Assembly: GCA_022360075.1 (NCBI GenBank)
Contig: JAKSDN010000688.1
Location: 1-20,880 of the forward strand
Direction of reading: 5' to 3'
Origin: Kiloniellales bacterium
GTDB lineage: Bacteria > Pseudomonadota > Alphaproteobacteria > Kiloniellales > JAKSDN01
Length of the DNA stretch: 20,880 nt
Both the position numbers and the translations under genes were made by a program. Shown one piece after another: positions 266-20,880 of the stretch (position 1 is the first letter of the stretch; every line of letters starts with the position of its first letter). Under the pieces are notes generated by a model, which saw only the letters and a list, made by a program, of their open reading frames with translations, was not told where the DNA came from and searched no databases.

Positions 266-1444
266 CTAGTCCTGGCCAGGCACGAAGACCTCTTGCCGTT
301 CACCGACGCCGCGCAGCGTGAAGTGTCCGATCGAGGCCGTCGGCATCGGGCAACTCTCGGCGAAGCTGGCCGACAGCACGATCTCTCGGCTACGCTCGGC
401 TGCCAGCGATTCGAGCCGGGCGGCCAAGTTGACCGCGGGGCCGATCGCCGTGAAGTCGAGCCGGCCGCCGCTGCCGATGTTGCCGTAGAGCAGACGGCCG
501 TGATGCAAGGCAAGGCCGAAGCGAAGCGACGGAGTCTCCGCATCGGCGTGTTCCCGGTTCCAATCCTCTAAACGGCCGCTTGCTTCCAGCGCGGCCTCGA
601 GGGCTGCCTGGCAGACGGCCGGCGTCTCCGACGCTGCCGCGATCGGGAAGATCGCCAACACGCCATCGCCCATGAACTTCAGGACCTCGCCGCCCGCGGA
701 CTCGATGGCGGGGACCAGACAGTCGAAATAACTGTTGAGCAAGGCGATGACTTCGTGACCGGGCCGCGACTCGCTGAGCCGCGTGAAGCCGCGCAGATCG
801 GAAAGCCAGATCACCGAGTGAATCTCTTCCACGTCGCCTCGGCGAATGCGGCCACCTAGAATCTGCTCGCCGGAGTTTCGGCCGACGTAGGTGTTGAGCA
901 AATTGCTCGCGGTACGGCGCAGAGCGAAGATCTCCGCGACGCGCGACAAGGGACGAACGACTTCGCGGATCGCCGCCAGGTCATGGTCGGTGAAGCCGCC
1001 CGCCCGGCACGTCGACCAGGTCGCGACATGGGTTTCGCCGTTGGTAAAATTGAGCGGTAGAGCCAGGTAGTCGGTCACGCCTTCTGCGTGCAACTCGGCC
1101 AGAACGGGAAAGGCGTCGTTGGCAAAGCCGTCCTCCAGAACGGCACGGAACTCCTCGCCTCGATGGGCGACCCATTGGGCCGGGCTTCTCAGAAAGGTCT
1201 CCTGGCTAAGCACCTCGTGGGGCGCTTCCGAGATCGAGACGCTCGAGCCGGCAAGCCAAAGCAGGCGGCGGCCCATGGCGTTCGGGTGCAGCGTGCGGAC
1301 GAAGACCGCGACGCGATGAAGCGGCAGGCCGGAATCGTAAAGCCCGTCACAGAGTTGCTGGAGCACGGCGTCGGGCTGATCCGCCCCTGGCGCGCCGTCG
1401 ATCAGCCACGCGACGATCGGCTCGATTTTCGGCGAAAGCAGCAT
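266..1444 (-). CDS. Class III adenylate/guanylate cyclase, soluble
   Basis: Predicted 392-residue cytosolic cyclase making cAMP (or cGMP) from the nucleoside triphosphate. The catalytic domain spans about residues 205-390. Metal-binding aspartates are D216 (WLSDLRGFT) and D260 (FMGDGVLAIF). K256 and D330 sit where adenine-selecting residues are expected, and N339/R343 (PAVNLAARLE) match the transition-state pair. Residues 1-175 have no recognised motif and no membrane segment; the region could be a GAF-like sensory domain, which is a guess. The ATG at 1444 is preferred over an upstream TTG at 1459 because GGAG lies 9 bases before it. The gene diverges from the rpfF-like gene across about 200 bases, so the two may share regulation. 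Adenylate cyclase is favoured over guanylate cyclase from the lysine/aspartate pair. Confidence 0.88.
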   Translation of the reverse strand: MLLSPKIEPIVAWLIDGAPGADQPDAVLQQLCDGLYDSGLPLHRVAVFVRTLHPNAMGRRLLWLAGSSVSISEAPHEVLSQETFLRSPAQWVAHRGEEFRAVLEDGFANDAFPVLAELHAEGVTDYLALPLNFTNGETHVATWSTCRAGGFTDHDLAAIREVVRPLSRVAEIFALRRTASNLLNTYVGRNSGEQILGGRIRRGDVEEIHSVIWLSDLRGFTRLSESRPGHEVIALLNSYFDCLVPAIESAGGEVLKFMGDGVLAIFPIAAASETPAVCQAALEAALEASGRLEDWNREHADAETPSLRFGLALHHGRLLYGNIGSGGRLDFTAIGPAVNLAARLESLAAERSREIVLSASFAESCPMPTASIGHFTLRGVGERQEVFVPGQD

Positions 1445-1607
1445 GGATAAGGGCTCCAAAGTTACAGGTTATGCGTGCCATTCATCGCGGAATCAGCGTC
1501 TCCGGCGAGCAGGAAATACAGAGATCGCAAACAAGTTTAATCGACCGCTGTCACAAATTGGTCTCTCCCAATGCCTTGCACGCAGAACGCGTTGCAATCA
1601 TCCTTAC

Positions 1608-1624
1608 GTGACGAAACAAGTCAC
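1608..1624. promoter_or_regulatory. Inverted repeat GTGAC-N7-GTCAC upstream of rpfF-like gene
   Basis: Five-base perfect arms at 1608-1612 and 1620-1624 are separated by gaaacaa. The site ends 24 bases before the rpfF-like ATG, in the divergent spacer shared with the cyclase gene. The half-sites resemble CRP/Clp-type GTGA/TCAC, but the spacing between them is 9, not the 6 of canonical CRP sites. It may be an operator; short arms like these also arise by chance. Confidence 0.25.
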
Positions 1625-1648
1625 CACTCAAAAGCCCAGGAGGCAGGC

Positions 1649-2665
1649 ATGGAAAGAAGCCATCAAGCGCTTGTGCATTCGGGACCGCACATTCCGATGT
1701 TCAATCCGACTGAAGCCATGAGGCCGACGCTGCCAAGTGCCATTCAAAAACGCGCCGGTGCAAGGACAAGACCGGAGTTGTCTGTGCGAAACATCGACGA
1801 AGCCGCGCCTTCGGGCCGATTGACGGCGCTCGACCTTCCTCTCAAGGAGCTCGAGATCGACTTCGATCCGCAGGAACGGATTTTCTGGCAGTGGATGAAG
1901 CCAGAGGGCCGTCCGAGCTACACGCTTGGCATGCTGCGCGAGATCCGGCGCTCGCTGGACCGCGTGCAGGCGATGTTCGTGGAGCGCGCCGGCGACCCCG
2001 AGCCCGCGGTCAAGTACGTCGTGATGGGCTCGAAGATGCCCGGCATCTTTAATCTCGGCGGTGATCTTCCGCTTTTCGCCGATCGCATCCGGGCTGGCGA
2101 CGGCGAGGCCTTGCGGCACTATGCCCATAGCTGCATCGAGCTGCAGTACGATCGGGCGGTCAACCAGGAGCTGCCCTATATCTCGATCTCGCTGGTTCAG
2201 GGCGATGCCTTGGGCGGGGGCTTCGAGTGCTGCCTCGCCGACGACCTCATCATCGCCGAGCGCAGCGCCAAGTTCGGCCTGCCCGAGATCCTGTTCAACC
2301 TGTTCCCGGGCATGGGCGCCTACAGCTTCCTGTCGCGCCGGCTGGACCCGGTGCAGGCCGAGCGGATGATCCTGAGCGGTAAGATCTACAAGGCCGAGGA
2401 GCTGCAGGAGATCGGCTTGGTCGACGAGGTGGTCGACGACGGCAAGGGCATCGAGGCGGTCTATGCCTTCGCGGCCCGCAATCGCCGGCGGTTCCAGGCA
2501 CGGCGCGCGGTCTATCAGGCGCGGCGTCTGGCCCGTCCGATCACGCTCGAGGAGCTGACCGCGATCACCGACCTCTGGGTCGATGCGGCCTTGACCCTCG
2601 ATCCCGGCGATCTGCGCAAGATGGAACGCCTGGCAGCCGCGCAGGACCGGAGGCGCCGCCGCTAA
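1649..2665 (+). CDS. rpfF: RpfF-like DSF synthase (crotonase fold)
   Basis: A 338-residue crotonase-superfamily protein most like RpfF, which makes cis-2-unsaturated fatty acid signals (DSF family) from acyl-ACP by combined dehydratase and thioesterase steps. Diagnostic segments are FNLGGDLPLF (about 134-143), SLVQGDALGGGFE (181-193) and LPEILFNLFPGMGAYSF (211-227). E193 and E213 correspond to the two catalytic glutamates of Xanthomonas RpfF. Ordinary enoyl-CoA hydratases lack the NLGGDL and LFPGMGAYSF combination. The ATG at 1649 follows AGGAGG with a 5-base gap; an open frame continues up to 1571 but has no comparable ribosome site. It carries an N-terminal extension of several dozen residues relative to the roughly 290-residue Xanthomonas protein. 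It converges on an rpfC-like gene, the arrangement of known DSF loci. No rpfB-like acyl-CoA ligase is in the window. Confidence 0.88.
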   Translation: MERSHQALVHSGPHIPMFNPTEAMRPTLPSAIQKRAGARTRPELSVRNIDEAAPSGRLTALDLPLKELEIDFDPQERIFWQWMKPEGRPSYTLGMLREIRRSLDRVQAMFVERAGDPEPAVKYVVMGSKMPGIFNLGGDLPLFADRIRAGDGEALRHYAHSCIELQYDRAVNQELPYISISLVQGDALGGGFECCLADDLIIAERSAKFGLPEILFNLFPGMGAYSFLSRRLDPVQAERMILSGKIYKAEELQEIGLVDEVVDDGKGIEAVYAFAARNRRRFQARRAVYQARRLARPITLEELTAITDLWVDAALTLDPGDLRKMERLAAAQDRRRRR

Positions 2666-2714
2666 GCGAAAGCAAGAAACCGACGCTTCGACCGGAACAG
2701 CCGAGACATCCGTT

Positions 2715-2753
2715 CCGCAAGCCTCCGGGACAAAGGGGGCGGAGGCGATGCGG
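2715..2753. terminator. Hairpin between convergent rpfF- and rpfC-like genes
   Basis: Arms GCCTCCG (2721-2727) and CGGAGGC (2740-2746) extend outward, past small bulges, with CCGCA (2715-2719) and TGCGG (2749-2753). The element sits in the 118-base gap between two convergent stop codons, where a bidirectional terminator is expected. There is no clear T-tract on either strand, so factor-independent activity is uncertain. Confidence 0.45.
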
Positions 2754-2783
2754 AGCCCGTCGCGGCGATAAGCCGATGGGACG

Positions 2784-5384
2784 CTAAATCGGTCGGCTCG
2801 TGCGCCGGCGATCGCTCAAGTAATCCGTGATCGCCGAGCGGAAGCGGGAGAACTCTCGATCGAGGCGATCGAGCAGTTCCGCACTGTCCCGCTGTAGTTC
2901 GAAGTGCGCGGTGTTGCAGATGCCGGCGCAAATGCGGTGGATCCGCAAAGCGCCGAGGTTGGCGGCGCTACTCCTTAGCGCATGGGCACAGTCGCGCAGC
3001 TCGCGCAGATCCTTGGCCTCGCAGGCCGATCTCATCTGCTTCAGAACCTGCTCTGTGTCGACGATGAAGTGGTCGACGACCTCGATCAGGAAATCGCTTC
3101 CCGGCTCCAGCTCTTGAATGTCACTCAAGGAGCGAAGATTGATCACGGGCTCGCTATCGGCCGAGAACCGCGGATGGCTCGCGATGTCGGTGACCCTGGC
3201 ATCGAACGCTTCCTCGGGCCTCTCGGACTCGGGCTTGCAGGTCGCCTCCGCCACGCATTCGTAGATCGATTCCAGCAGTCGGCCGGCCTCGACCGGCTTG
3301 GTGATGTAGCCGTCCATGCCGGCGTCGGTGCAGGCCTTGCGCGTCTCCGTGGTCGCATCAGCGGTCAGCGCGATGATCGGCACGTAGGGCTCGTCCAGAT
3401 GGCTGAAGCGATACAGCTTGGTCACGTCCAAGCCGCTGGTGCCCGGCATGTTCACGTCCATCAGCACGGCATCGAAGCGCTCGGCCTCCATCGCATCGAG
3501 CGCCTCGTCACCGGTCTGCGCAAGATTCGCCGTGTGGCCGGCGCGCTCGAGAATCTTCGCCGTGACCATGCGGTTCACCGCGTTGTCCTCGGCCACGAGG
3601 ATCCGCAGCGGACGCCGGCGGCCGGACTGGGCCAGGCGCAGGCTCGCATCGACCTCAGCCTCGCTGCGTGCCGGATCGAACGCTTGGGCGCAATGCACGG
3701 CATTGAGCAGCACTTGATCGCTGAGCGGCAGGGCGAGCATGGCCATGAAGTTTTCGCGATGATCCTGCAATAGCCCGGGCAGCTCCGCCCGCTCGGCCAG
3801 CAGGAGGCAGGTGAAGACGCCACCCGGATCGACGGATTGCAGGTCCCGCACGATCTCCGAAGGGTCGCCATCCAGCCGGTTGGTGTTGATGAGCGCGATG
3901 TGGTGGCGCTGCCCCTCGCCGAGATCCTGGGCCAGGAAGTCTGCCGCCTGATCGATGTCGCGGGCCTCGGCGATCTGCAGGAAGCTGTCGGCGAAGACAC
4001 GATGCAAGCCGCGTGAGAGCGCCCGATCCGGCCCCAAGACGATCAATCGGCCACGCGCCAGGCGCTGCACCGCCTCGTCGAGGCTCTCGTCACGATCGCT
4101 GGCCCGGTCGAAAGCCGCGCTGACCCAGAACACGCTGCCTTTGTCGAGCTCGCTCGTGAAGTCGATCTCGCCACCCAGCAGCTCGGTCAATTGCCTGGAG
4201 ATAGAAAGCCCGAGGCCGGTGCCGCCATAGCGTCGATTGGTGGCTTCGTCGGCCTTGGTGAAGCTGTCGAAAATGCGGTCGTGCTCCTCTGCCGGGATGC
4301 CGATTCCGGTATCGCTCACGGCAAATCTGAGGGTGACCCGGCCGGCCTCCTCGCTCAGCAGCTCGATCGAGAGCATCACGTGGCCGCGCTCGGTGAACTT
4401 CACCGCGTTGGCCAGCAGGTTGGTCACGACCTGTCGCAGGTGCTGCAAACCCCCGTGCAGGCGATAGGGCACCTCGGGCGAGATATGGACCAGCAGCCGC
4501 AGGCCACCGCCTTCGGCCTGCGGACGGATGATCGAGAGGATGTCGGCCATCTCGGCGTGCAGGTCGAAGTCGACGGCATCGACCGACATCTTGCCGGCCT
4601 CGATGCGCGAGACGTCGAGGATGTCCTCGATCAGCGACAGGAGCGCGCGGCCGGAGGTCCCGACCGTCCGCGTCATGTCGCGCTGCTCGCGATCGAGGCG
4701 GGTATCCTGCAGGAGATCGCTGATGCCGATGATGGCGTTCAGAGGCGTGCGCAGCTCGTGGCTCATGTTGGCGAGGAAGCGGCTCTTGGCCTGGTTCGCC
4801 TCTTCGGCCTGGGCCTTCGCCAAGGTCAGCTTTCTGATCAGGGTGGAGACATAGGCCGGGAGGATCGCCAGCGCCGCCAGCAGGCTCGTCGCCATGTAGG
4901 GCTCGGAGCGCCAATAGGCGGTGGTCATCGTAACCCAGAAAAAGCCGATGATCGAAGCCGCCGCCGAGGCCGCGATGTAGGGGACGCCATAGCGAAAGCC
5001 GTTGCCGAACGTGATCCAGAGATAGAGCGGATAGAGCAGGCTCGCAGCCTCCCCGCCCCAGTGCATCAGGACTGACAGGCAGGTGAAGTCCGTGACCATG
5101 CCGCAAAGGCGCCGGACGACCGACTTGGCCGGGCGCAGCACGATCAATACGAGGTAGATGACCGAAAGGGCGAGATAGGTGCCGGTATAGAGCGCGCCCA
5201 GCCAATAGGGACCGTGGTCGAACTCGCTCTCGACGCTCAGGTAGAGGAAATAGAAGGCGGCAAAGAGCACGATCACGATGCGAATGATCGCCTGTTCGTG
5301 CTCGCTGTCCTCGCGCTGTCTCAGGCGTTGCAACAAAGCGCGCAACGCACCGGGCTCGCGTCCGACGTCAGGCATTGAGCTCAT
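2784..5384 (-). CDS. rpfC: RpfC-like hybrid sensor histidine kinase (TM-HK-REC-HPt)
   Basis: An 866-residue membrane sensor kinase, best read as the DSF receptor RpfC. A short polar N-terminus with DSEHEQ just before the first membrane segment matches the RpfC sensor start (Xanthomonas has DSEHAQ). About five or six hydrophobic segments follow between residues 34 and 185, with the GNGFRYG loop near 127-133. Next are the kinase core (HELRTP, histidine about 209; [23 protein letters not shown]), a true receiver with phospho-acceptor aspartate about 643 (LMDVNMPG) and TKP near 695, and a C-terminal HPt with histidine about 801 ([13 protein letters not shown]). Between kinase and receiver, about residues 445-570, lies an extra receiver-like segment lacking the aspartate. 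The start could be GTG 5390, ATG 5384 or ATG 5375; none has a strong ribosome site. It lies downstream of the REC-PAS-HK gene on the same strand. Confidence 0.88.
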
Positions 5385-5411
5385 GGTCACGAGAAAGTCT
5401 CAATACAAAGA

Positions 5412-5431
5412 AGGCAATGCAAGCTTTGCCT
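5412..5431. promoter_or_regulatory. Inverted repeat AGGCAA-N8-TTGCCT upstream of rpfC-like gene
   Basis: Perfect 6-base arms at 5412-5417 and 5426-5431 form a 20-base palindromic site. It lies 28 bases before the ATG at 5384, where an operator overlapping a promoter or leader would sit. The 165-base gap it lies in separates the rpfC-like gene from the upstream REC-PAS-HK gene. No convincing -35/-10 pair was found around it. The functional role is inferred. Confidence 0.3.
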
Positions 5432-5540
5432 CGCGTAGCACGACTAAGACCGAGCTCGCCCACAATCCGCGGTTCGCTCGCTTTTGCGACAACGCCCCCC
5501 AAAAGAAAACTGTCCTCGAGTCTGCCAGCAAAGGGTTAAC

Positions 5541-5561
5541 GCCGGCGCGCTATTCGCCGGC
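5541..5561 (-). terminator. Possible hairpin terminator at end of REC-PAS-HK gene
   Basis: Arms GCCGGCG (5541-5547) and CGCCGGC (5555-5561) surround a 7-base loop containing the stop codon. On the minus strand the hairpin is followed by GTTAACCCTTT, a weak T-rich run. It could limit read-through from the REC-PAS-HK gene into the rpfC-like gene, or act only as an attenuator. Confidence 0.35.
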
Positions 5562-7235
5562 TTGCTCGGCCCGGCTCGCCCGATGGACCGTCCGCTCGGC
5601 GGGGAAGAGGATCTTGATACGGGTTCCCTTCCCCACCTCACTTTCAATGTCTAGCTGACCCCCGTGCAGCTTGGTTAAATCGCTGGCGAGCGGCAGACCG
5701 AGCCCCGTGCCCGAATACCGGCTCTTTGAAGAGCTCTCCACCCGCCCAAATCTGGACTTCGCGACCGACAGATCCTGCTCGGAGATGCCGATGCCGGTAT
5801 CGCTGACCTCGAGTATGATCTCGCCGCGGTTGGTGGTCGAGGCTTTGAGCGTGACCGCGCCGCCCTGCGGCGTGAACTTGACCCCATTCGAAAGCAGATT
5901 GCCGAGAATCTGCTTCAGCCGCCGCTCATCGCCGCGCAGCGCCGGAAGCGCCGAATCGCAGTCGGTCGCAATGCGAACGCCGCCGCTGTCGGCCCGCTTC
6001 TGAATCCCGCCGATCGATTCGGCCAACAGGACGCCGAGGTCGACGACCTCGTCGTTCAACTCCATGCGGCCGGCCTCGATGGTCGAGACGTCGAGCAGGT
6101 CATTGATGATGTCCAGCAGATGCTCGGCGCTGGTGCGGATGTCTTGCGCGTACTCGGTGTACTTCGCGTTGCCGATCGGCCCGAAGAGCTCCGAGCGCAT
6201 CACGTCGGCGAAGCCGATGACCGCGTTCAGGGGCGTGCGCAGCTCGTGGCTCATGCTGGCCAGGAACTCGGTCTTGGTCCGATTGCCGGCCTCCGCCTCT
6301 TCCTTCGCGCGGTGCAGGGCCCGTTCCACGGCCTTGCGCTCGGTGATGTCGACGGACACGGTCACCACGTTGGCGACGCGGCCGGTGGAATCGAACAGCG
6401 GTGCCTTGGTGGTCAGGAAGATCCGTTGCTCGCCGATATGGCTCGAATAGGACTCCTCCGAGCCGGACAGCGTTTCACCGCTGTCGAAGACGCTCTGGTC
6501 CATCTCCAGGTGGCGCGCCGCGTAGGCGTCGCCGAAGAGATCGGCGATCGGCAGACCGACGGCCGCCTCCGGATCGGTGCTGAAGAAGGCGCCCTGATAG
6601 TTGTTCACGAACACGCAGCGCCCGCTGCGGTCGGTCACGCAGATCATGGCCGGCACGGAGTTGGTGACCAGCCGCAGCTTCTCCTCGCTTTCGCGCAGCT
6701 CCTCCTTCCTGAGCTGGTTGGTCGTCCGGAGCTTCTGCTCCAGGACCGAGGCGCGGCGCTTGATGATCTGCTGCTGCTTGCGCAGCGTCAGCAGGTTGTG
6801 CGCACGGGCACGGAACTCGTAGTGATCGAGCGGGCTCAGGAGGAAATCGGTCGCCCCCGCCTCGAGTGCCTTGTAGCGGAAGTCGCGATCCTCGTAGACC
6901 GTCACGACGATGATCGGCACGTCGTTGCACAGCGGTCGCCCGCGCAGCTCGCGAATGAAGGCCGCGCCGTCCATCGCGGGCATCTTGTAGTCGGTGATGA
7001 CGAGATCGGGCGTGTTGTCGGCGATCCAGTCGAGCGCGGCCTGGGGCTCGCCGAAGCTCTGGACGATCGTCTCTTCGTCGAGCGAGGTGGCGAGTTTCGA
7101 GAGAATGTCCCGATTGGTGACGCGATCGTCGACGATGACGATCACGGGAACGTCCCGTCCCAATCCGCTTGCCTGGCCGATCACGGGGGCCTGTGGCGCC
7201 ACCCGGACCACGTTTTGGCGTCTACTGTGTCCCAC
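5550..7235 (-). CDS. Receiver-PAS-histidine kinase with RpfG-like receiver
   Basis: A soluble 561-residue signalling protein with no membrane segment. The receiver (about 30-150) has the acidic pair D36/D37, phospho-acceptor D82 (ITDYKMPAMDG) and T112. The usual lysine is a serine, S134 (DFLLSPLD). The receiver end and linker (EAGATDFLLSP...FRARAHNLLTLRKQQ...ASVLEQKL) read very like Xanthomonas RpfG. The HD-GYP output is missing: instead come a coiled linker, a PAS/PAC domain (about 190-300, ending VDITERK) and a kinase core (MSHELRTP, H330; LGNLLSNGVKF; DTGIGIS; GTGLGLP). GTG 7235 is chosen because AGGCGG lies 9 bases upstream; a GTG at 7295 is open but adds residues that look non-coding. 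It lies upstream of the rpfC-like gene, the rpfG position in classic DSF loci, so it may receive phosphate from that HPt domain. Confidence 0.85.
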   Translation of the reverse strand: MGHSRRQNVVRVAPQAPVIGQASGLGRDVPVIVIVDDRVTNRDILSKLATSLDEETIVQSFGEPQAALDWIADNTPDLVITDYKMPAMDGAAFIRELRGRPLCNDVPIIVVTVYEDRDFRYKALEAGATDFLLSPLDHYEFRARAHNLLTLRKQQQIIKRRASVLEQKLRTTNQLRKEELRESEEKLRLVTNSVPAMICVTDRSGRCVFVNNYQGAFFSTDPEAAVGLPIADLFGDAYAARHLEMDQSVFDSGETLSGSEESYSSHIGEQRIFLTTKAPLFDSTGRVANVVTVSVDITERKAVERALHRAKEEAEAGNRTKTEFLASMSHELRTPLNAVIGFADVMRSELFGPIGNAKYTEYAQDIRTSAEHLLDIINDLLDVSTIEAGRMELNDEVVDLGVLLAESIGGIQKRADSGGVRIATDCDSALPALRGDERRLKQILGNLLSNGVKFTPQGGAVTLKASTTNRGEIILEVSDTGIGISEQDLSVAKSRFGRVESSSKSRYSGTGLGLPLASDLTKLHGGQLDIESEVGKGTRIKILFPAERTVHRASRAEQAGE

Positions 7236-7534
7236 TGCCGCTATCCGCCTTAGCTTGCACGGACGCCCTCTGTGCAATCCATCGTGTCTTCGCACGCAGG
7301 GCCACAGGTCTTAAAGCACGCCTCCCAAATGAAGCGCCAGGACCGCTAGTTAGTCGGCGCCCCGGATCCAGACCGGATACATTCCTGTCCTCAACACTCT
7401 ACAGCGCAATGCATAATCTAGCCAGCATCCTGTTACACGAGGATTTCAGCGTAACCTGCGCTGGCCTTGCGGCATCGAAAGGTCAGGCCGCCCGAGGTCG
7501 GTGGCACGGAGATGACGCGATCGTGAATGAACGA
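7236..7534. other. Spacer between REC-PAS-HK start and tRNA terminator
   Basis: About 300 bases of visibly less GC-rich DNA that must hold the promoter of the minus-strand REC-PAS-HK gene. A plus-strand frame crosses it, but it has no ribosome site and continues through the antisense of the tRNA, so I treat it as non-coding. No confident -35/-10 pair, repeat or small gene was seen. Confidence 0.5.
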
Positions 7535-20086: not shown

Positions 20087-20880
20087 ATGATCCTGGATTT
20101 CGCCTGTCCTATTCCGCCCGCGGAGGAGGAAGAGGCGCGCCTGCTCGCGCTGGCGAGCTATGGCATCGTCGACACGCCGGCCGAAGCGGAGTTCGACCGC
20201 TTCGTGCGCCTGGCGAGCGAGCTCTTCGAGGTCCCGATCGCCGTGATCTCGCTGGTCGAGCGCGACCGGCAGTGGTTCAAGGCGATCGTCGGCCTGGAGG
20301 CCAGCGAGACGGAGCGCCAGGTCTCCTTCTGCGGCCATGCCATCCTGTCCGATGACCCCCTGGTCGTTCCGAACGCGTTGGAGGACCCGCGCTTCAAGGG
20401 CAACCCCTTGGTCGTGGGCGCGCCCAACATCCGCTTCTACGCCGGCGCGCCTTTGATCACCCCGACGGGGGCGAGGCTGGGCACTCTTTGCATTATCGAC
20501 GACAAGCCGCGTTCGGGCTTCACCGATTGCCAAGCGACCTTGCTGGCCGACCTCGCGCAGCTCGTGATGGACCGGCTTGAGTTGCGCAAGGCCGAGGCCG
20601 AGCGGCGGATCAGTCAGGAGCGCTTCCGCAAGATCGCTTCGACGACCCCTGAGGCCATCGTCTGCGCCGACTTCGAGGGCACGATCCAGTTCTGGAACGA
20701 GGCGGCGGAATCCATCTTCGGCTACCTCAAGGAAGATGCCCTCGGTCGGAACGTGGCGATGCTCGTTCCTGAAGAGTCGCAGTCGGCGCACCAAAGCGGC
20801 ATGGAGAGATTCGTCACCGGCGGCACGCCAAGGCTGATCGGGCAGACCCGCGAGTTCATGGCGCGCCGCCGCGACGGCGA
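20087..20880 (+). CDS. GAF-PAS sensor protein, 3' end outside window
   Basis: The first 264 residues of a signalling protein cut by the window edge. Residues 15-165 form a GAF domain of the type found in many sensor kinases and cyclic-di-GMP enzymes: ISLVERDRQWFKAIVGL (54-70), SFCGHAIL (80-87), DPRFKGNPLV (100-109) and IRFYAGAPL...LGTLCIID (115-138). A short coiled linker (ELRKAEAERRISQERFR) leads into a PAS domain from about 178 (TTPEAIVCADFEGTIQFWN, FGYLKEDALGRN). ATG 20087 is the only usable start after an in-frame TAG at 20033, and GAGG lies 8 bases upstream. No signal peptide or membrane segment is seen, so it is likely cytosolic. The output domain (histidine kinase, GGDEF/EAL or other) is not visible. 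Confidence 0.85.
   Translation, partial: MILDFACPIPPAEEEEARLLALASYGIVDTPAEAEFDRFVRLASELFEVPIAVISLVERDRQWFKAIVGLEASETERQVSFCGHAILSDDPLVVPNALEDPRFKGNPLVVGAPNIRFYAGAPLITPTGARLGTLCIIDDKPRSGFTDCQATLLADLAQLVMDRLELRKAEAERRISQERFRKIASTTPEAIVCADFEGTIQFWNEAAESIFGYLKEDALGRNVAMLVPEESQSAHQSGMERFVTGGTPRLIGQTREFMARRRDG

Follow-up and report, generated by a model that had tools for sequence, protein, structure and literature searches.

What a diffusible signal factor (DSF) receptor acts on when the gene in the place of rpfG does not encode an HD-GYP phosphodiesterase is the question raised by a group of genes in a 20,880-nucleotide stretch of DNA from a Kiloniellales bacterium (contig JAKSDN010000688.1; the whole stretch is called the window below). 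Open reading frames (ORFs) and Pfam matches give the gene order class III cyclase (minus strand), rpfF (plus), rpfC (minus) and a gene for a REC-PAS_4-HisKA-HATPase protein (minus), the last of which we call the slot gene. An earlier note on this DNA had described an rpfF converging on an rpfC, with a minus-strand gene in the rpfG place and with neither HD-GYP nor rpfB; the order and the domains match this description, a motif script run over frames of at least 60 aa printed no HD-GYP for the window, and no acyl-CoA ligase family match that would indicate rpfB was found among the window proteins scanned, which cover part of its ORFs. The locus is a real new variant of a known DSF system. With a probability of about 0.65 we read it as an alphaproteobacterial DSF-type quorum-sensing module, in which RpfF would provide the signal, RpfC would relay it, the HPt domain of RpfC would hand phosphate to an RpfG-type receiver, and a PAS-linked kinase would be the output. 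That the host is an alphaproteobacterium we take from the relationships of rpfF, rpfC and the slot gene. What carries this reading is the gene order, the domains, the conservation of motifs and residues, the orthology of the receiver and the recurrence of the arrangement in relatives.

The slot protein, the synthase and the receptor

The receiver of the window's slot protein was searched against 14 genomes, which we class by the output domain of their slot gene (five kinase-type, four GGDEF-EAL-type and five HD-GYP-type). The best match genome-wide was the rpfC-adjacent slot gene in all 14, whichever the output type, for instance with 187 bits versus 47 for the runner-up in G001 and 102 versus 50 in G717; the lead was smallest in G753 (81 versus 48), and the strongest runner-up was found in G006 (Denitrobaculum; 173 versus 97). 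This consistency argues that the receivers are orthologous and of the RpfG type, and that the rest of the protein has been exchanged. By these comparisons the slot protein joins a receiver of the RpfG type to an exchanged output module: where RpfG has HD-GYP, it has PAS-HisKA-HATPase. The earlier description of the rpfG slot as "rewired" is thus borne out in a stronger sense, with the receiver kept, the output module different, and the pattern recurring beyond the window. The acidic pair and the phospho-Asp are conserved in 92 of 92 slot receivers, and the position of the usual Lys is occupied by K (six) or R (one) in the seven HD-GYP slots and by S (80), T (4) or A (1) in the 85 others. The true start of the slot gene is probably downstream of position 7295, because the identical database protein has 544 aa and the ten best homologues have 533–568 aa.

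For rpfF we adopted the start of an identical database protein of 338 aa (P0002); position 1697 is the alternative start. RpfF passes the NCBIfam family NF006452 (351 bits, cut-off 177), and its best PDB match is Xanthomonas RpfF (3m6m, 178 bits), the top four matches lying at 172–178 bits and the fifth at 72. Two of the four (3m6m and 6dgn) were named RpfF by their depositors, and the remaining two (7zq7 and 5fus) go by the names crotonase family protein and putative enoyl-CoA hydratase; 5fus we take to be a DSF-type synthase. Both catalytic glutamates, E141 and E161 of Xanthomonas campestris pv. campestris (Xcc), are invariant in an alignment of 21 proteins. Together with G86 and G138 they are reported for the thioesterase and catalytic function of RpfF (PMC9040811; here and below, papers are cited for those of their passages that were available to us), and all four residues are present in the window RpfF by alignment to 3m6m and invariant across the 21 proteins. 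In a quick tree of 99 rows (93 RpfF-type proteins, with the GGDEF-EAL set thinned, and six ordinary hydratases, one of which served as root), the window protein sits among RpfFs of kinase-type loci, no starred (well-supported) set containing it, and the other five hydratases group together with full support, their long branch attaching near a few divergent RpfFs, a placement that carries a long-branch warning.

The receptor has the domain order HisKA-HATPase-REC-HPt according to Pfam, as in RpfC. Among the matches listed, the RpfC chain 3m6m_D ranks top (94 bits) of the PDB chains whose best stretch is the receiver, and longer chains that span kinase and receiver outrank it. Five membrane-adjacent residues of Xanthomonas RpfC (R15, D17, S18, E19 and Q22) are reported as essential for DSF sensing (PMC5391125); the window RpfC keeps all of them (R.DSE..Q), directly before its first hydrophobic stretch. 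By hydropathy only, it has four peaks above 1.4 and a fifth of 1.3 at a lower threshold; RpfC is described with five helices.

Survey of rpfF loci and history of the outputs

We compared 121 loci, namely 80 named loci (those ranking highest among at least 495 confirmed), 40 regions taken from two even genome samples, and the window; the 80 are a biased set, because they were ranked by likeness to the window's RpfF family. A script classed the slot output as GGDEF-EAL in 51 loci, HisKA kinase in 26 (window included) and HD-GYP in seven, with a receiver lacking all three outputs in eight and no slot gene seen in 29 (14 with less than 5 kb on the rpfC side, 11 with room but no rpfC, four with room and rpfC). 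The boundary of the kinase class is loose: L013, L035 and L137 have no PAS match in the script (Pfam gives a weak PAS in L137), L035 has its slot gene on the other side of rpfF, and L141 has HisKA on the other strand, with no HATPase at threshold. Nearly all of the 51 REC-PAS-GGDEF-EAL loci are alphaproteobacterial by title or kin. The slot gene lies beside rpfC and in the same direction in 45 of 51 GGDEF-EAL, 24 of 26 kinase and 7 of 7 HD-GYP loci. Of the 108 loci in which at least 4 kb follow rpfF, the window among them, 87 have a convergent rpfC within 400 bp of it, so the arrangement is more than chance.

These comparisons bear out what the earlier note had claimed of both proteins and of their pairing: the synthase resembles RpfF far more than it does ordinary enoyl-CoA hydratases (178 versus 72 bits, and the 99-row tree with its long-branch warnings), the full R.DSE..Q motif upholds the RpfC sensor homology of the kinase, and the rpfF-rpfC pair is conserved among gene neighbourhoods.

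Kinase outputs predominate in an even sample of 385 genomes from the class of Denitrobaculum (G006). Of the 23 genomes with rpfF at an E-value of 1e-40, 15 are kinase-type (12 sample regions, L141 included, plus L001, L015 and L020), one is GGDEF-EAL, one REC-PAS-HisKA_2, and six show no slot gene, a contig end cutting three of these loci short. For six of the eight slots with other outputs Pfam gives REC-PAS-HisKA_2 in L017, L037 and L139, REC-PAS alone in L022 and L059, and REC-PAS-GAF-PAS in L069. In L017, L037 (Skermanella-titled) and L139 the slot protein, with its kinase of another family, is encoded on the far side of rpfF, and in L022, L028, L039 and L059 (Roseomonas, Acetobacteraceae) it looks like REC-PAS without an output domain, with the Pfam evidence covering L022 and L059 only. 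L163, L164, L165 and L166, from the phylum sample, are rpfF-rpfC pairs with room downstream and no recognised slot gene.

A quick receptor tree of 64 rows (20 GGDEF-EAL rows having been thinned out; only rows with a kinase, GGDEF-EAL or HD-GYP slot) places the 57 kinase- and GGDEF-EAL-type rows in one group (SH-aLRT support 96), with the HD-GYP rows outside. Five changes between kinase and GGDEF-EAL are needed on this tree, at least four of them forced by starred branches, and a 98-row tree, in which L143 is represented by the wrong one of its two RpfC-like genes, agrees in outline. The direction of these changes is not readable from the receptor tree; slot genes may have been transferred between lineages. 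Among the slot kinases themselves, 17 of 25 fall into one clade of a quick tree. A careful tree combined 24 of them (without L035 and L141) with 26 other kinases from four kinase-type genomes, a background drawn from at most 30 best-matching loci of those genomes; 19 of the 24, the window's included, form one clade (support 95/90), and a single origin of all 24 is not rejected (approximately unbiased test, p-AU 0.173). The window's variant thus seems to have been inherited rather than to have arisen by accident at this one place.

The sensor residues vary with the type of locus. Across 98 receptors the full R.DSE..Q motif is found in 21 of 26 kinase-type, 6 of 7 HD-GYP-type and 3 of 51 GGDEF-EAL-type proteins, in 2 of 7 with another slot protein and in 2 of 7 without a slot gene. 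The script found the sensor Gln in 25 of 26 kinase-type and four of 51 GGDEF-EAL receptors, one of these four (L174, matched at residue 405) being spurious; Met, Leu or Ile replaces this DSF-essential residue in 44 of the 51 (Met in 37), and such receptors may sense a different fatty acid. We considered that the Gln might be tied to the kinase output and rejected this: in the receptor tree L014, L056 and L151 (GGDEF-EAL slot, Gln) do not fall into the main GGDEF-EAL group, and L141, a kinase-type locus with Met, does, so that the residue follows receptor ancestry, not output.

A few loci deserve separate mention. One extra frame in L003 and two each in L008 and L012 lie between rpfC and the slot gene and match the RpfC input domain with its sensor motif, reminiscent of Xanthomonas rpfH. 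L143 has a second RpfC-like kinase (L143:9127-11487) across rpfF from the first. The record of L012 bears the title Mycobacterium sp. KBS0706, probably a misnomer, since the receptor tree places this locus with Inquilinus; L002, from a bin titled Terriglobia, has an rpfF 59% identical to the query that groups with alphaproteobacterial ones, possibly through mis-binning or transfer.

The proposed signalling route and its rivals

In the route that we propose, RpfF would make a cis-2-unsaturated fatty acid, RpfC would sense it at its short N-terminal sensor and run an internal HisKA-REC-HPt phosphorelay, and the HPt domain would pass phosphate to the receiver of the slot protein. This receiver would then control the PAS-linked histidine kinase, in place of an HD-GYP phosphodiesterase, and the kinase would phosphorylate (or dephosphorylate) a response regulator encoded elsewhere. 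The signal identity, each phosphotransfer step, the direction of control and the target of the kinase are what we infer. We expect the steps from DSF through RpfC and HPt to the slot receiver by analogy with the Xanthomonas pathway (PMC4504480). Cyclic di-GMP (c-di-GMP) could come in further downstream of the step from RpfC to the slot kinase.

The best NCBIfam match of the slot kinase is PdhS (223 bits), a family predicted to act on DivK and PleD (PMC7003649), and 4 of 120 homologues, among the matches listed, are named PleC by a source. BarA scores nearly as high (217 bits), and in G011 five other kinases outscore the slot kinase, so we leave the assignment open. If the module on the RpfG-type receiver is a PleC/PdhS-like kinase, a relay from one kinase to the next might carry the DSF signal into the DivK/PleD-CtrA pathway of the cell cycle, a speculative extension that we consider unlikely; the cell cycle, motility and attachment would in that case be under the control of cell density.

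Several points weigh against the proposed module. The scan of window proteins, as far as it went, recognised no gene for a response regulator beside the slot kinase. The slot receiver carries Ser for the usual Lys, and phosphorylation may therefore act differently on it. We found no report in the literature of DSF production by an organism of this type. HD-GYP domains occur somewhere in 8 of 12 kinase-type genomes, most of which are metagenome assemblies by title and may be incomplete, and these domains are possible phosphate acceptors by cross-talk. Finally, RpfF scores below the cut-off of the NCBIfam RpfF equivalog NF053515 (215 versus 550 bits). This last point would suit a metabolic crotonase in a locus without quorum sensing, which we consider highly improbable: the cut-off is narrow, with just 3 of 398 phylum-sample genomes attaining it, it also excludes the RpfFs of another three HD-GYP-type loci (L108-L110, which coincide with L157-L159), the synthase is conserved together with its receptor, and the receptor's DSF residues are kept in most kinase-type loci (the 21 of 26 above).

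The HD-GYP domains would likewise suit an RpfC that still acts via c-di-GMP, phosphorylating an HD-GYP or GGDEF regulator elsewhere and leaving the slot kinase as a side branch, and in Denitrobaculum (G006) the second-closest receiver to the slot receiver, at 97 bits, does belong to a REC-GGDEF protein. That protein, however, adjoins a hybrid kinase without a match to the RpfC input domain, and all five kinase-type genomes searched have the slot gene itself as the closest match, with the runner-up at no HD-GYP place, which makes such a route improbable. The Denitrobaculum pair (L205:3685-7203) is an observation of its own: a further hybrid kinase whose neighbour, the REC-GGDEF protein, has a receiver like that of RpfG. 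Somewhat less probable still is that the slot protein senses through its own PAS domain, possibly a fatty acid as in RpfS and RpfR, with the receiver tuning the response and RpfC mainly controlling RpfF. All 51 GGDEF-EAL slots and 23 of the 26 kinase slots show a PAS match, and the window's is a PAS_4, the type by which RpfS reportedly binds DSF (PMC4504480); yet none of the seven HD-GYP slots has such a PAS, and a profile of ten slot PAS domains matches the PAS of RpfR at an E-value of only 0.031, below many unrelated PAS domains. A cyclic AMP route, with the divergent class III cyclase as the real output partner, would draw on the position of that gene next to rpfF in the window. We rejected the cyclase as a member of the module, and give this route hardly any credence, as it is not conserved there in relatives: of 107 loci with at least 3 kb upstream only L148 has a nearby cyclase match (93 bits, 1.5 kb upstream), the match in L065 being 8.7 kb off on the other side. 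The earlier note had drawn the locus as a single interval (266..7235), which included the cyclase and does not stand in that form; its interpretation is otherwise supported overall, the checks of the synthase and of the sensor homology having given nothing to refute it. We therefore retain the relay from RpfF and RpfC to the slot kinase as the preferred reading.

Relation to known systems and features of the window

With Xanthomonas rpfF and rpfGHC the locus has in common the convergent rpfF-rpfC pair, the sensor motif, the domain order of RpfC, and an orthologous receiver in the gene upstream of rpfC, in the same direction. It differs in a slot protein that ends in a PAS-histidine kinase and not in HD-GYP, in having no rpfB seen beside rpfF, and in the change of the receiver Lys to Ser. 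The REC-PAS-GGDEF-EAL loci share the receptor and synthase families, the REC-PAS half and the loss of the receiver Lys, but have a GGDEF-EAL end and mostly another residue for the receptor Gln. Burkholderia RpfF/RpfR has an RpfF homologue and a PAS domain joined to a signalling output; to our knowledge, RpfR has no receiver and needs no RpfC. It is described as PAS-GGDEF-EAL, and RpfS, the DSF-binding PAS_4 kinase of Xanthomonas, shares with the slot protein the succession of PAS_4 and kinase in DSF signalling but is described with an N-terminal PAS (both PMC4504480), hence with no receiver before it.

For DSF signalling in this group we found no published description of an output exchange, in a search whose coverage did not extend to most subscription papers or to most preprints on bioRxiv. 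The passages available list RpfC-RpfG in alphaproteobacteria from KEGG (PMC8895600) and report for Lysobacter a DSF output independent of c-di-GMP (PMC8463545). Our comparison suggests that the DSF pathway is a plug-in system, in which synthase, receptor and receiver stay constant and the output varies between HD-GYP, GGDEF-EAL and kinase. Such a pattern would make "DSF signalling" distinct from "c-di-GMP breakdown". It also predicts that DSF signalling takes place in lineages where the surveyed literature describes none, and it provides a natural series in which to study how a single receiver can control different outputs.

Table 1. Coordinates of the features discussed, in window positions
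Feature	Position	Strand	Basis or remark
Class III cyclase	266-1459	-	divergent from rpfF, adjoining it
rpfF-type DSF synthase, crotonase family	1649..2665	+	NF006452, PDB matches, identical database protein P0002
Two catalytic glutamates (Xcc E141, E161)	codons 2225-2227, 2285-2287	+	alignment to 3m6m
rpfC-type hybrid receptor kinase: sensor, hydrophobic segments, HisKA, HATPase, REC, HPt	2784..5390	-	Pfam, RpfC receiver chain, hydropathy
HPt domain of RpfC, presumed phosphodonor to slot receiver	2835..3083	-	PF01627, 41.7 bits
DSF-sensor motif REDSEHEQ (Xcc R15, D17, S18, E19, Q22)	5292..5315	-	
rpfG-slot gene, REC-PAS_4-HisKA-HATPase	5550..7295	-	Pfam and homologue lengths
Histidine kinase output module of slot protein	5595..6275 (HisKA 6069-6275, HATPase 5595-5933)	-	Pfam, kinase trees
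PAS_4 of slot protein	6333..6662	-	PF08448, 68.9 bits
RpfG-type receiver of slot protein; phospho-Asp present, usual Lys replaced by Ser	6804..7142	-	
GAF-PAS protein, truncated by window end	20087-20880		

Beyond the four-gene group the window contains a tRNA-Gly and, by profile match, genes for an ABC transporter and its binding protein, an OmpA-family protein, an ApaG-domain protein, TrkH, Hsp33 and acetylornithine transaminase.

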